From NCBI GenBank assembly GCA_001314625.1, contig LJSH01000006.1, positions 140,746-204,745 on the forward strand: 64,000 nucleotides of DNA. Reading direction: 5' to 3'. Origin of the DNA: Oceanicaulis sp. HLUCCA04. Lineage in GTDB: Bacteria > Pseudomonadota > Alphaproteobacteria > Caulobacterales > Maricaulaceae. Made by a program: the position numbers and the translations under genes. Positions within the stretch are counted from its first letter, which is position 1; the number at the start of each line of letters is the position of its first letter. Positions 2,418-64,000 of this stretch are shown in pieces. The notes beneath the pieces were generated by a model, which was not told the origin of the DNA, did no database searches, and saw nothing but the letters and a program-made list of their open reading frames with translations.

Positions 2418-3518
2418 CTACCTCAGCTTGAGTGTGGACAGGCCGATCAAAGCCAGCACCACCGCAATGATCCAGAAGCGGATCACGATGGTAGGCTCTG
2501 CCCAGCCCATTTTTTCAAAATGGTGGTGGATCGGCGCCATGCGGAAGACGCGCTTGCCGGTCAGCTTGAAGCTGGCGACCTGGATCATCACCGACAGGGC
2601 CTCGAGAACGAACAGGCCACCGACAATGGCCAGCACGATCTCGTGCTTCACCGCCACTGCAATCGTGCCCAGGGCACCGCCCAGGGACAATGAGCCTGTA
2701 TCGCCCATGAACACCATCGCAGGGGGCGCATTGTACCAGAGAAAGCCCAGCCCCGAACCGATGATGGCGCCGCATATGACGGCCAGTTCGCCTGTTCCGG
2801 GCGTGAAATTCAGGAACAGATAGTTGGAATAGACCGCCGAACCGACGAAATAGGCAATGAAGCCGAACGAGCCTGCCGCGATCATCACCGGCACGATGGC
2901 CAGGCCATCAAGACCGTCCGTGATGTTGACGGCGTTGGACGCGCCGACAATCACGATCAGGCCGAACAGGAAGAACCCGTAGCTGAGCGGTATCAGCACA
3001 TCCTTGAAGAAAGGCACCGCGATGGAGGTGGCAAACCCTTCGGGCACGTTGGGGGCCGAGGAAAGCAGCTCTGTCATCCAGAACACGGCCACCAGCGCCA
3101 CGACCGATTGCAGGGCCAGCTTCATCTTGCCCGAAATACCCGCCGAGGAGCGCTTGGTCACCTTGCGCCAGTCATCGAGAAAGCCGATCGCGCCGAAGCC
3201 GGCGGTCACCAGTATCACGACCCAGATATAGGCGTTGGACAGATCGGCCCAGAGCAGTGTGCCGGCCAGAATGCCTATCAGGATTATGAAGCCCCCCATG
3301 GTGGGCGTGCCCGCCTTGGTGAGCACATGGGATTCCGGGCCGTCATCACGGATCGGCTGGGAGCCTTTTGTTCTGAGCCAGCCGATGAAAGGCTTGCCGA
3401 TAATGAGCGCTACCGCAAACGCCGTGATCAGGCCTGCGCCTGTACGAAATGTCAGATAGTTCACCACGTTGAACAGGGCGATGTCGGCAGCAAGTTGGGA
3501 AAGCAGGAAATAGAGCAT
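2418..3518 (-). CDS. mraY: Phospho-N-acetylmuramoyl-pentapeptide-transferase
   Basis: 366 aa, multi-[13 protein letters not shown] and [25 protein letters not shown] motifs. Confidence 0.97.
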
Positions 3519-3523
3519 GAAAA

Positions 3524-4933
3524 TCAGCCTTTGATGACCGCGTCGACGGCACCGTTGTGCAAACTTGCGACTACTTTATGAACGCCGGAACCATTCGACC
3601 CCTTGATCAGCACAACATCATCCGGACGCAGCATCTCAATAAGGCGTTGCGTGGCATCGGCGGGCGACGCCGCCATCGTGCCTTTGACTGAAGACGGCAA
3701 GGCAGAGACCATGTGCTCCATCATCGCGCCCACGCCGATCACCTCGCTGACCCCTGCACTGGAAAGCCGGGCAGCCAGTTCGCGATGACGCTCCGGCGCG
3801 GTCTCGCCGATCTCCAGCATCTCACCAAGGACAGCCAGGCGGCGGCCTTTGCCCTCGGGCGTATGGCGGGCGAGCGTTGAAATCGCCGATGCCATCGAGG
3901 CCGGGTTGGCATTATAGCTGTCATCGATGATACGCGCGCTGCCGCCTTCAAGATTGACGGTAAAGCTGGCGCCACGCCCGGCCTGCGCTTCCAACCCGGC
4001 CAGCACATCAGCGACCTGCGCAGAATCGATCCCGGCGGTGACGCATGCTGCCATGACGGCGGCGGCATTATGGGCCTGATGCTCTCCGGGTGCCGGGATC
4101 GCTATATCGACCACACGGCCCAGCACGTCGAGCCGCCCGCGCCCGCCTGTGGCCTCCTGCTCCCAGGAGAGAATGCGCACGGCAGCGCCTCTTGCCTTGC
4201 CGAACTCGAACATGAACGCCGCAGAGCTTTCACCGATGCGCGCGGCAAGCCGGGGCGCGTATTCGCAGTCCGCCGGGATGATCGCCACACCATCCCCTGC
4301 CAGCCCGGTGAATATCTCCGCCTTGGCGTCGGCGATGGCTTCCATCGAGCCGAGATTTTCCAGATGCGCGGGCGCGATGCGCGTGATCAGCGCGACCTGC
4401 GGCCGGACCTGTGTGGCCAAGGCAGCGATCTCGCCGGCATGGTTCATGCCCATTTCGAAAACCCCGCGCGCCGTTTCGCGCGGCATCCGGGCAAGTGTCA
4501 GCGGCACACCCCAGTGGTTATTGTAGGATTTAACGCTCCAGTGCGCCGTGCCGCCGCTACGGAAAACCGCCGCGATCGCTTCCTTGACGGAGGTTTTACC
4601 CACCGATCCCGTGACCCCAACCCGGACAGCCGGACAACGGTCACGCGCGGCAATGCCGAGGCGTTGCAGCGCTTCGAGCACATCGGGCACGACAAGGCGC
4701 GGGCCTGAACCGGCATCCTCGCGGCTGACAATCGAGGCTGCAGCGCCTGCCTTTTCTGCAGCAGGCACAAAATCATGGCCATCGCGCTGATCAGCGAGCG
4801 CCACGAACAGATCACCGGCCTCCAGCGAGCGTGTGTCGATGGAGACCCCTTGCGCCTGCCAGTTGTCTGCACCTACAAGCCGTCCGCCGGTGGCGCTGGC
4901 GGCTTCTGCCGCTGTCCATAAAGGCCCGGTCAT
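3524..4933 (-). CDS. murF: UDP-N-acetylmuramoyl-tripeptide--D-alanyl-D-alanine ligase
   Basis: 469 aa; [16 protein letters not shown] motif; position between mraY and murE. Confidence 0.95.
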
Positions 4934-59366: not shown

Positions 59367-59805
59367 TCACCGCTGGCATTTCGGACAGTGGAAGGTTGAG
59401 CGGCCCTGCTGGACAATGCGGATGATCGGCTTGCCACACCTGCTGCCGGCCACAGCGCCGCGGCAGGGCTGCCCCTCGCGCCCATAGGCATCAAACCGGT
59501 GCTGGAAATAGCCCAGCGCTCCATCCGCTCCGGCATAGTCGCGCAACGTGGAGCCGCCCGCCTCAATGGCTTCGGCGATCACATTCCTGACGGCAGATGC
59601 CAGCCTTTCGGCGCGCTCGCCCTTGATAGTGCCTGCCTGGCGTCTGGGGCTGATACGCGCGCGCCACAGCGCCTCGCAGACATAGATATTACCAAGACCG
59701 GCCACGACGCGCTGATCCAGCAGGGCAGCCTTGGCAGAGGTTTTGCGCCCGCTGAACACCTCGGCGAGATAGGCACCGGAAAAGCGGTTTGAGTCCGGTT
59801 CGGGG
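59367..59805 (-). pseudogene. mutM: mutM (formamidopyrimidine-DNA glycosylase), C-terminal half only, disrupted by integrative element
   Basis: In-frame minus-strand reading [55 protein letters not shown]...[12 protein letters not shown] (H2TH and zinc finger); N-terminal catalytic half absent. Confidence 0.88.
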
Positions 59806-61335
59806 CACCATCCTGTTTTCTAGGGTCGAAAAATCCCCTAAGAGCTTGAAGGGTAAGGAAAAATTAGCGGTTCGAAACCCTTCGTTCCTTTTGTATTTTA
59901 GCTGGTCTGCAAACGTCAATCTTAGCACCGCACGCTTGTCCTCAAAACGCGGAGAACTCCATAATTTCAGCGGGTTAGATAGGAACTCCATAGCGGTTCG
60001 ATAGGTCCGCTTAAGGGTATCCCTTGGCTCAGCTGGCAGATTCGATTCTTCGAGCAAGGCGGCCTTTTCCAGCTCCAGATCGCGGAGGCGCTCCTCATAC
60101 CGCTTTATCAGGGTCTCGCTTGTAGCTTCGAGGGTACGATCGACCAGGGTGTCGATTTTAGCCTCTACGTCGCGGACCTGCTGGCGCAGGGCACGGCGCT
60201 TCTCAGTAAGACGTTCACCATGGCGCTCCCAGATGTCCGTGAGCATCGCATGAACAAGGTCGAAAAGCTTTTGCGTCGGCTTGGCCGTCGCAAGCAGCAT
60301 TTCAAATTCCTTTTCGATATCTGCCTTGCGGATCGACTTCCGGTGACTCACGCATTCTTTGTTGTGGCACTCATAGTAGATGTAATATTTGTTGCGGCCT
60401 TTGGACTTACCGCCGGTTAGCGGTCGTTCGCAGTCGCCACACAGCACGAAGCCGCGCAGTGGCATTTCCTCGCGCAGGTCTTTGCGCACAGCAGCTTTAG
60501 CCATGTTGGTTTTCCGGCCCGAGAGACGGTCCTGAATTCTCCGATACGTGTGTAGGCTGATGATCCCATCATGCTGCCCTTCACGCAGATCGATGTTCCA
60601 ATCCGGACGCTCGATATATCCGGCATAGAGCACCTGCGTCAGCCATTCCCGGACACGCTGGATGCGCACTTCGCCTTGCTTTGTGTCTTTCGGAAAGTCC
60701 GGCTGGGCTTCCAGGAAGCGCTTTACCTCGCTCAGCGTCTGCAAACGCCCGTCAGCATAGCGTTCAAGCGCCTCTTGAAGGATTGAAGCGACAGGTTCAT
60801 CGCGAACAAGGAGCTTGCCGTGCGCGCCAACCTTTTCGTATTTCAATCCGATGGGCGCTTTGAAGACCCAATAGCCGTTCATCATCCGGCCCCACATGCG
60901 GTTGCGGGTCTGCTCGGCATTCTTGAGGCGATGATATTCGGCAAAGTTCACCGACATCATCTCCATCAACCAGGCTTCGGAGGTGTCGCCAAACTGGAAT
61001 GACGGGCATTCCAGTATCGAGTTGGTTTTGGCCAGTTCGTCGCGGAACCACATCCAGATGCGGGTGTCACGCGCCAAGCGGCTGATATCTTCAATGATAA
61101 TGACATGAGGAACGCGGCGGTTGGCGCGCAGAAATTTCAGCATTTCCTCGCTTTGAGGACGCTTCAGATCGCCGCCGGATGCATCGTCCTTGTAGGTCGC
61201 AACGACCTCATAACCCTTGCTTTTCGCGTATTCGACGCACCGCACTTCCTGGCTTTCCAGGCCGTGGCCTTCCGTTTTCTGCTTTGTATCAGAAACGCGG
61301 CAATAGATGACGGCAGGTTGTTTCTTCTCAGTCAT
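59689..61335 (-). CDS. Large serine recombinase (site-specific integrase)
   Basis: 548 aa; [21 protein letters not shown] (catalytic Ser), recombinase domain, zinc-ribbon [12 protein letters not shown]...YECHNKEC, coiled coil; C-terminal end reads out of frame into mutM. Confidence 0.95.
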
Positions 61336-61567
61336 TGTTCAGCTCTGTAATCATTATCGTTTCATCGGATTTTACCTCATCCGAATCAGCCTTGCCAGAA
61401 CTACGTCGCTGTTTATCAACGACTTTCTGGACAGCATCTGTGCCGTAAGCACGGGCAACGAAGCTGTCGAGCAGGGCCCACATAACATCGATGAACTCGT
61501 CTCTTTTGTCATCCGCGAGGTTAAATTCATCCAGCAGGGGCCGGTATTTTTCATAGTCCGGTCCCAT
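61328..61567 (-). CDS. 79-aa protein translationally coupled to the recombinase, unknown
   Basis: MGPDYEKYRPLLDEFNLADDKRDEFIDVMWALLDSFVARAYG...; 8-bp overlap with recombinase start. Confidence 0.7.
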   Translation of the reverse strand: MGPDYEKYRPLLDEFNLADDKRDEFIDVMWALLDSFVARAYGTDAVQKVVDKQRRSSGKADSDEVKSDETIMITELNND

Positions 61568-61707: not shown

Positions 61708-62391
61708 TCAATATTTCGGGAAAGCTTCGAAGAGCGCCCCGGCTTGATCAGCCCAGACTGTCCAGGCATCGATCAGGTTTTGGGTGCGGGCGCGCTCAGC
61801 GCCGCCGGTTGTCTCACCAATTCCGTAGAGGCTGACCCCGCAGCCCTGGAGCAGATCGCCGTTCGGCGCAGGCAACGGGGTTTCACCGCTGGCCAAACGT
61901 TCCGGGCTTGTGCCAGGCGATGCCTCAATCCCGTCGGTGAAGAGAACAAGCGCGGTCAGGCGTGTGCCGCAGGACAGCAGCGCCGCTTCCTCTTCAAGAA
62001 AGGCCGTGATGTGCGTTGTGCCGCCCGCAGGCAGGCGTCCGCTCGCCACCAGTTCCGGGAGGCTGGCGATAAGCCGTTCCACACTTGCCGCGACGCGGGC
62101 CGCAGGCATTCGCCGCGACACCGTGATATCAAGGCGCAGCGGGTTATCGCTTTGGCTGTAGGAGCCAAAGGTGCGGATACGCAGCCGATCGCCATTGCCA
62201 AGGGTACGGATCATCTCCGCCGCCTTGCGACCGGCCTTGGCCGCCATGACGTCGCTTTCGACGATGACATTCGAGGTCGAGACATCGAGCGCAATCATCA
62301 GATCGCGCGGGGTGCGCTGATCATCCGCGAAGGCGGATTGGCCGAAAAGGCTCAGCATGGCGCAGCCAGCAAGGAAAGCAGCCTTAGTCAT
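61708..62391 (-). CDS. Secreted von Willebrand factor type A-like protein (DUF1194-like)
   Basis: Signal peptide MTKAAFLAGCAMLSLFGQSAFADDQ; MIDAS DVSTS; TALVLFTDGIEASPGTSPE. Confidence 0.75.
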   Translation of the reverse strand: MTKAAFLAGCAMLSLFGQSAFADDQRTPRDLMIALDVSTSNVIVESDVMAAKAGRKAAEMIRTLGNGDRLRIRTFGSYSQSDNPLRLDITVSRRMPAARVAASVERLIASLPELVASGRLPAGGTTHITAFLEEEAALLSCGTRLTALVLFTDGIEASPGTSPERLASGETPLPAPNGDLLQGCGVSLYGIGETTGGAERARTQNLIDAWTVWADQAGALFEAFPKY

Positions 62392-63460
62392 CGAACATCT
62401 CCAGATCATTATCGGTGAGGCCGAACTCGGTGATCGCCACCGACACGGCGATGTCGAAGAGCACGTCTTCGCTGATCACCTGGTCGAGATCGGCCAGAAG
62501 GGTTTTGAGGGCGGGCACATCGAGCGTGCCGACTTCATCGGGCAGGCCGAGGAGCTTGGAGCCGAGTCCGGCCAGCGGATCGCCATCTTCATCGGGCTTC
62601 ATCAACGCCGACGCCTGGACCACACGGCGCGGATAGCTCAGCGCGCTATCGGCTTTCGCCGTAAGAGTGGCCACGGCCTCGCGCACCGCCGTCACCGGCG
62701 ACACAGCGTCATGGCCCGTAACCTTGTGCGCCGCCGCCCCAAGGGCCGCATCAGCGGCAAGCATCGCCGCTTTCAGCCTGGCAGACTCCCGCATCCGCGT
62801 GAGTGCAGTGACAAACTCGCCAGCGAGCTTGAGCGCCACGCCGATCAGGAAATGACTCACCAGCACGGTCAGGAAAAACACACCGCCCAGGCCAAGGGTC
62901 GCGAACAGGAGGGCAATCAGCCCGCCATAGTCCGCGAACAGATCGCGAAGGAACTCGACAAGGCTTTCATCGTCCGGCGCGCCATCGGTATTGGCGAGCC
63001 AGCTATCGAGCCCATCGATGCCGGTGGCCGGATCGAACAGCATGGAGGCTGCGACCTCAAAGCTCGTCATTGCGACGATCAGGCCGAAACCCAGAAGGAA
63101 GAGCACAAGCGCAACCAGGCCGAGACGCATCATCCAGCGATGGATCGCTTCGCTCCCCGGCTGACGGGTGAGCACATGCAACGCGACGATCGCGATCAGG
63201 GAAGCAAGCGCGAGAAGGGTGATCGGCTGATTGCCGGTCCCGTCATCCAGGAGCGTTACCATGGTGTGGAGCATCAGTTGAAACTCCACCGCCAGCGCCG
63301 CCCCGAGCACGATAAGGACGAGCGGAAGCGCCGAAAGCCCCGCCGCCGCCAGCAGGAAGGCTTTGCGCGCAGCGCCGTGCAGCGCGCCGATCATTTCAAT
63401 CTGATGCGGGCGTAGCCGAGTAATTTGGCGAGTTGCTGGACGGGTGTTTGCCTTAGTCAT
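62384..63460 (-). CDS. Four-TM membrane protein, unknown function
   Basis: Likely start MTKANTRPATRQITRLRPHQIEMIGALHG; hydrophobic segments AAGLSALPLVLIVLGAALAV, ITLLALASLIAIVALHVL, LGLVALVLFLLGFGLIVAM, GLIALLFATLGLGGVFFLTVLV. Confidence 0.75.
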   Translation of the reverse strand: MTKANTRPATRQITRLRPHQIEMIGALHGAARKAFLLAAAGLSALPLVLIVLGAALAVEFQLMLHTMVTLLDDGTGNQPITLLALASLIAIVALHVLTRQPGSEAIHRWMMRLGLVALVLFLLGFGLIVAMTSFEVAASMLFDPATGIDGLDSWLANTDGAPDDESLVEFLRDLFADYGGLIALLFATLGLGGVFFLTVLVSHFLIGVALKLAGEFVTALTRMRESARLKAAMLAADAALGAAAHKVTGHDAVSPVTAVREAVATLTAKADSALSYPRRVVQASALMKPDEDGDPLAGLGSKLLGLPDEVGTLDVPALKTLLADLDQVISEDVLFDIAVSVAITEFGLTDNDLEMFDD

Positions 63461-63791
63461 GGTCGGCCCCTTTCGCGCTGGCGAGACGGAGCAGACGCCC
63501 ATGGTCGGCCTTCAGCCTCGCGAAGCCGGGCGTGTCTTCATGAAGGGTCAGGAAGGCATGGAAGGCGTCGCTCAGCTCCGCTTGGAGCTGATCCGCCGTT
63601 GCTTGTGCCGCGTCCGCCTCATTGCGGGTAAGCCCGAACAGCTCGCGCACCGCCTCAGCGGTGACCGCTTTCGAGGGCGGCTGCATCTCGCGCAGGGCCG
63701 CTTCGAAAGCATTGAGAGCTTTCATCTCGCTGACCTCTGGCGGCGTCGTATTGAAAATCCGGCTGTTCATAGTGATGTTTGATAAGGGCAA
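63453..63791 (-). CDS. Small helical cytosolic protein, unknown
   Basis: 112 aa; KALNAFEAALREMQPPSKAVTAEAVRELFGLTRNEADAAQATADQL; 8-bp overlap with next gene. Confidence 0.65.
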   Translation of the reverse strand: MPLSNITMNSRIFNTTPPEVSEMKALNAFEAALREMQPPSKAVTAEAVRELFGLTRNEADAAQATADQLQAELSDAFHAFLTLHEDTPGFARLKADHGRLLRLASAKGADHD

Positions 63792-63824
63792 CCCGCGCCG
63801 GGACGGGTTGTCGAAAGTTGTCGA

Positions 63825-64000
63825 ATGAGGGAGAGCGAGGTGCCAAGTTTCGGAATTCGCTTAGGAAAAATGGTCGCCGAATTCCGGGCGGCGAACGAAA
63901 TGAGCCAGAAAGACCTGGCGATCGCCGCCTTTAACGACGAGGCACAACGCTATTGGGTCTCGAAACTTGAAGGCGGGAGAGTTCATCGTCCGCATGAGCG
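63825..64000 (+). CDS. XRE-family HTH regulator (partial, runs off the window)
   Basis: MRESEVPSFGIRLGKMVAEFRAANEMSQKDLAIAAFNDEAQRYWVSKLEGGRVHRPHE... Confidence 0.75.
   Translation, partial: MRESEVPSFGIRLGKMVAEFRAANEMSQKDLAIAAFNDEAQRYWVSKLEGGRVHRPHE

Follow-up and report, generated by a model that had tools for sequence, protein, structure and literature searches.

To our knowledge, bacterial periplasmic VWA proteins are poorly characterised. One that has been described is McaA of Magnetospirillum magneticum, a periplasmic VWA protein that requires an intact MIDAS for both localisation and function and has a cytoplasmic output (PMC9512821). Like P0001, the VWA protein considered here, McaA is an alphaproteobacterial periplasmic VWA protein with intact MIDAS, and it acts through a cytoplasmic part; unlike the locus considered here, it is one large single protein with its own transmembrane (TM) segment and serves magnetosome positioning together with McaB (PMC9512821). 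RavA-ViaA and other MoxR-VWA systems likewise combine a VWA protein and a partner that are tied to membrane or stress functions. These systems require a MoxR AAA+ ATPase, but no MoxR-type ATPase is encoded within the operon described below or in the neighbouring ORFs.

Here, we analyse a stretch of 64,000 nucleotides from Oceanicaulis sp. HLUCCA04 (the window). Three genes close to its end, which we call the trio, and a divergent gene next to them have the following features:

61708..62391, minus strand: exported VWA protein P0001, 227 aa, MIDAS D36-x-S38-x-S40 / T126 / D153
62384..63460, minus strand: four-TM inner-membrane protein P0002, 358 aa, predicted N-in/C-in
63453..63791, minus strand: small soluble helical protein P0003, 112 aa with start codon TTG 63791, 105 aa with the alternative start ATG 63770
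63790..63825, no strand: possible operator, palindrome AACCCG-N8-CGGGTT (63790-63809) and direct repeat (63808-63825), from alignment
63840..64000, plus strand: XRE-like HTH regulator, divergent, truncated where the contig ends, weak, below-cut-off match to Pfam HTH_31

The proteins of the trio

An earlier sequence-only reading of this DNA had described three minus-strand ORFs coupled by two 8-bp overlaps. The ORFs and both overlaps are present in the window, and the overlaps have identical letters, ATGACTAA, at the two junctions. The composition that had been proposed, a small helical protein, a four-TM protein with a long loop and a signal-peptide VWA protein with MIDAS, is borne out by sequence features. 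The N-terminus of P0001 resembles a signal peptide and is followed by the VWA region, which has the complete MIDAS (DxSxS, T, D) of the VWA superfamily. In the alignment, the motifs D36-x-S38-x-S40, T126 and D153 are invariant in 19 P0001 homologues. P0002 has a basic N-terminus and four hydrophobic segments, followed by a predicted helical cytoplasmic C-terminus of ~140 aa. Its TM3-TM4 loop (around residues 143-178), which is predicted to be periplasmic, is strongly acidic (one K/R versus nine D/E), and the loop is acidic in all examined members of the TM family.

AlphaFold2 models built on three close sequences were poor (pLDDT 45 and 44), and a PDB fold search with the low-confidence model of P0001 (pLDDT 45) gave no VWA match. 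We therefore assign P0001 to the VWA proteins provisionally, from its motifs and one weak sequence match to a chain of sporozoite surface protein 2 (E 0.02). An NCBIfam match of P0001 to IHF beta covers only 24-29 residues, is far below cut-off and was rejected as a chance hit. No described system had been recognised in the earlier reading, and the profile libraries agree: no model in Pfam, NCBIfam or PADLOC covers the trio, neither the trio nor its chromosomal homologues (see below) match any described defence protein model in PADLOC, and PHROGs contains no model of the trio family, the one weak match, of unassigned function, being to a chromosomal TM protein. A literature search found no paper on the trio module.

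The divergent HTH gene

The trio and an XRE-HTH gene about 34 bp away had been read as a self-regulated module. A divergent HTH gene is present, but it is truncated because assembly contig C9 ends exactly at position 64000, and the gap would exceed 34 bp if ATG 63770 and GTG 63840 are the true starts of the small gene and the HTH gene, respectively. In L005, one of two other elements with the trio, the counterpart of the HTH gene is a 172-aa ORF (L005:722-1240), again with a weak, below-cut-off match to Pfam HTH_31. The divergent gap contains the palindrome and the direct repeat TTGTCGAA-N2-TTGTCGAA (63808-63825). According to the alignment, both are conserved in L005; neither is visible in L006, the Rhodothalassium salexigens copy, which is without HTH gene. 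The palindrome and repeat may possibly be the operator of the HTH protein. Self-regulation thus stands as a plausible feature of the two copies that have the gap repeats, but since the R. salexigens copy lacks the HTH gene, the gene is not an obligate part and its regulation is not general. It is likely a repressor of the trio, and likely dispensable. In R. salexigens, its place upstream of the trio is taken by a 439-aa ORF (L006:4294-5613) with no match in Pfam or PADLOC.

The carrier element in mutM

Beyond the trio lie a gene for a recombinase partner, a recombinase gene and a part of mutM:

61328..61567, minus strand: 79-aa partner of the recombinase, element backbone, outside the trio; a relative lies directly upstream in 12 of 20 loci of related recombinases
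59806..61335, minus strand: large serine recombinase (Resolvase, zinc ribbon, XisF/CcrB-like); the ORF extends into mutM to 59689
59805..59806, no strand: probable attachment-site core GC inside mutM, from comparison of the two halves of mutM with uninterrupted mutM genes of relatives
59367..59804, minus strand: mutM C-terminal half (H2TH, zf-FPG)

The recombinase sits at the break point of mutM, whose N-terminal half is found on contig C7 (L049:538-975). Alignment to five relatives of the genus, whose first mutM domain is in a long open frame, maps the insertion to the GC dinucleotide. With mutM split by the element, the host probably has no functional MutM glycosylase as long as the element stays in place. 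Another 16.2 kb of the element is on contig C7. Apart from a relaxase and a coupling protein, it encodes a HerA/SIR2 pair and an MmeI-type IIG restriction-methylation enzyme, which has a DEAD-like helicase and a T5orf172 protein as neighbours. This defence cargo (L049:5418-15807) also includes an unassigned 277-aa protein and a small protein of possible ribbon-helix-helix type; a HipA C-terminal protein comes next (L049:16325-17224).

Inserted in mutM, the carrier spans at least 20.4 kb and is most likely an integrative mobilizable element (IME). It has a recombinase, a relaxase and a coupling protein as IMEs do, and conjugation channel genes were not found in the ~20.4 kb assembled, which is in two pieces separated by a contig gap. 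A relaxase and a coupling protein without channel genes in this sequence suggest that the element probably uses a helper. The trio could then be an exclusion or transfer-helper module that acts on the conjugation apparatus of the helper element, and membrane and periplasmic proteins that adjoin a recombinase would suit an exclusion role. However, the trio and the mobilisation genes are at opposite ends of the element, and no named conjugation family in Pfam or NCBIfam was matched.

Related recombinases speak against this idea as well. We examined 20 loci with related recombinases, some of them cut by contig ends, and none had trio genes, although several had coupling-protein-like genes. One of the 20, L071 (G000:C5:606000-617000), belongs to the genome of the window itself and holds its second serine recombinase of this kind; an HsdM-like gene is close by. 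In all three copies of the trio, its genes adjoin the 79-aa gene and the recombinase, as would be expected if the trio belonged to the recombination core of this family of elements. But the 20 related loci do without it, while 12 keep a relative of the 79-aa gene directly upstream of the recombinase, which rules out such a core role in this sample and makes it extremely improbable altogether. The survey and the mobility genes of the carrier instead uphold the proposal that the trio is mobile-element cargo. The ~80-120-aa family (window 61328-61567; L005:3471-3710; L006:7882-8142; ORFs upstream in L071-L090) has no Pfam match and could be a recombination accessory or directionality factor.

Close relatives on two other elements

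Among 85,462 species genomes, close relatives of the trio were found at only two loci, L005 in a Parvularculaceae MAG and L006 in R. salexigens DSM 2132. Both loci have all three genes in the same order as in the window, followed by a ~80-aa gene and then a serine recombinase, and their coordinates indicate 8-bp overlaps at the trio junctions. Gene order and overlaps are thus kept in three elements, in line with operon status. The window proteins are 86-87% (TM), 84-88% (VWA) and 62-69% (small protein) identical to those of L005 and L006. Among the three mobile copies, dN/dS is 0.10-0.16 for both TM and VWA, and the small protein gives 0.16-0.39. The recurrence of the complete trio, in unchanged gene order, at two independent loci and the low dN/dS of TM and VWA are more than chance would give; judged by this conservation, the trio genes are real and purifying selection acts on them.

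Between the elements, dS is 0.4-0.8 for TM and VWA versus 1.7-2.1, near saturation, for the recombinase. That the trio is less diverged than the recombinases indicates that it has moved separately, between element backbones. At the recombinase end, tRNA-Thr and tRNA-Arg genes are found in L005 and L006, in place of the mutM of the window. The genes beside the R. salexigens trio include AbiEi/AbiEii and ArdA (L006:1072-2590, 3509-4126), and ArdA is also found beside the L005 trio (L005:2-679).

Defence genes near the trio (SIR2-HerA and the MmeI-type IIG enzyme on the window's element, AbiEi/AbiEii and ArdA in R. salexigens, ArdA in L005), the low dN/dS and the movement between elements with different recombinases would all fit a function in immunity at the membrane. 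At the periplasmic face, the VWA protein would then sense incoming DNA or the adsorption of phage, while the four-TM protein would block entry or depolarise the membrane. Yet a defence-rich neighbourhood is weak evidence because cargo is shuffled, PADLOC has no match for the trio or its chromosomal homologues, and searches of viral contigs, phages and plasmids found no relatives of either the trio or the chromosomal family.

A chromosomal TM-VWA pair

Of 289 other genomes of the class, 16 have homologues that a profile of the three mobile VWA proteins detects. P0001 matches these chromosomal proteins over nearly its full length with E about 1e-34 (hhalign E 1.9e-41). A multi-TM protein is encoded directly upstream of the VWA gene in each of the 16 genomes. 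When 266 genomes of the class were searched with a profile of the chromosomal TM proteins, the same 16 genomes were matched and no others; the profile was built from 14 of the 16 matched genomes, which makes its recall elsewhere less certain. From this exact co-occurrence and the adjacency in 16 of 16 genomes, the TM and VWA genes apparently form an obligate pair in alphaproteobacteria.

The relationship of P0002 to the chromosomal TM family is more distant, and since a plain HMM search with the chromosomal TM profile misses P0002 (E about 0.5), the link needs profile comparison and gene order. By hhalign, P0002 and the chromosomal family match with E 9e-5 over 205 columns. The three mobile TM proteins reach profile scores of 37-46 over ~190-230 columns, compared with no more than 24.9, over 63 columns, among 40 unrelated multi-TM decoys (the entry at the head of the decoy list is the ORF of P0002 itself). 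Searches of relatives and of the class with P0002 as a single protein or with three sequences gave no convincing match. Mobile and chromosomal proteins are 31-37% (VWA) and 15-21% (TM) identical, with the mobile lineage on a long branch.

Fourteen of the 16 chromosomal pairs lie within ~8 kb of a recurring gene set in seven families of the class (BLAST), which speaks for vertical inheritance of the chromosomal locus. By sequence recognition, we take the recurring neighbours to be ecm, ccr, mcd, gluQRS, estB, alkA and an HNH gene. In one genome (L042, G299:C139), the pair is tandemly duplicated between gluQRS-like and ecm-like genes. The window trio is not at this syntenic locus but inside the element in mutM, and its sequence and position make the window pair a mobile relative that has diverged, as opposed to an orthologue in the conserved place. 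The chromosomal pair (L027-L042), which has no database name, resembles the trio in gene order, in the acidic TM3-TM4 loop of a four-TM protein, in an exported or anchored VWA protein with intact MIDAS, and, by position, in a cytoplasmic helical part that is either separate or fused. A small protein precedes the TM gene in L029, L030 and L032, and the TM proteins of L036, L037 and L041 have a comparable extension fused to their N-terminus. P0003 is the positional equivalent of the small chromosomal proteins or of this fused part, with no significant hhalign match to the small proteins (E 0.12). Unlike the trio, the chromosomal pair has no 8-bp overlaps where checked and no HTH gene noted alongside.

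The idea of an exclusively mobile module has to be abandoned, since the pair has distant homologues at a conserved locus in other alphaproteobacteria. The neighbourhood search suggested by the sequence-only reading thus gave a divided answer: the gene order recurs in two other elements, while the distant TM and VWA homologues are chromosomal. Of the two findings that were to count against that reading, homologues at a fixed chromosomal locus exist for the TM-VWA pair, if distant, and no match to a named conjugation family was found in Pfam or NCBIfam. The fixed syntenic position beside metabolic genes also bears on the functional alternatives. It is unusual for defence genes, and we consider the immunity function unlikely; it is also at odds with an exclusion or transfer-helper module, which we regard as improbable.

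Conservation of the chromosomal locus in at least seven families would instead fit a general envelope or stress-homeostasis module that was captured from the chromosome and is now supplied to hosts without it. R. salexigens and the Parvularculaceae genome indeed have the mobile copy only. Among 200 genomes of the taxonomic order of the window, copies of any kind are confined to the window genome and the Parvularculaceae MAG, and a 399-genome sample of the phylum contained the window's own copy and nothing else. However, the mobile lineage is very divergent and its long branch exceeds what a simple recent capture would produce. A captured homeostasis module is thus a possibility that we hold only tentatively.

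Discussion

Together, our data suggest that the trio is probably an envelope module that has been picked up by defence-rich mobile elements and is not confined to them. We think it reasonably probable that it is a horizontally moving relative of an alphaproteobacterial envelope module, and that its products form a complex that signals the state of the envelope to the cytoplasm. In such a complex, the four-TM protein would span the inner membrane, its two termini facing the cytoplasm. The VWA protein would be exported, its intact MIDAS would hold a divalent metal, and through this metal the protein would dock on acidic side chains in the TM3-TM4 loop. The complex would then report or gate a condition of the envelope to its helical parts in the cytoplasm, one of which, the small protein, has a gene of its own. 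Coupled translation via the two 8-bp overlaps would hold the subunits in proportion. In two of the three elements, the divergent XRE-type repressor may silence the operon until the element or the envelope is perturbed.

The benefit of the cargo to the host would most likely lie at the level of the envelope, either in envelope or stress homeostasis, or in protection from incoming DNA (phage or conjugation). The former is somewhat favoured because of the fixed chromosomal relatives. It is also conceivable, though we find it doubtful, that mobilizable elements have recruited an old alphaproteobacterial envelope complex as a new system of membrane-level immunity or exclusion under its own repressor.

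The gene pair of a membrane protein and a VWA protein is uncharacterised in alphaproteobacteria and outside all profile libraries searched, and a diverged version of it travels on defence-rich mobile elements. The natural combination of a chromosomal and a mobile version would permit a direct test of whether envelope housekeeping complexes become element-borne protection.
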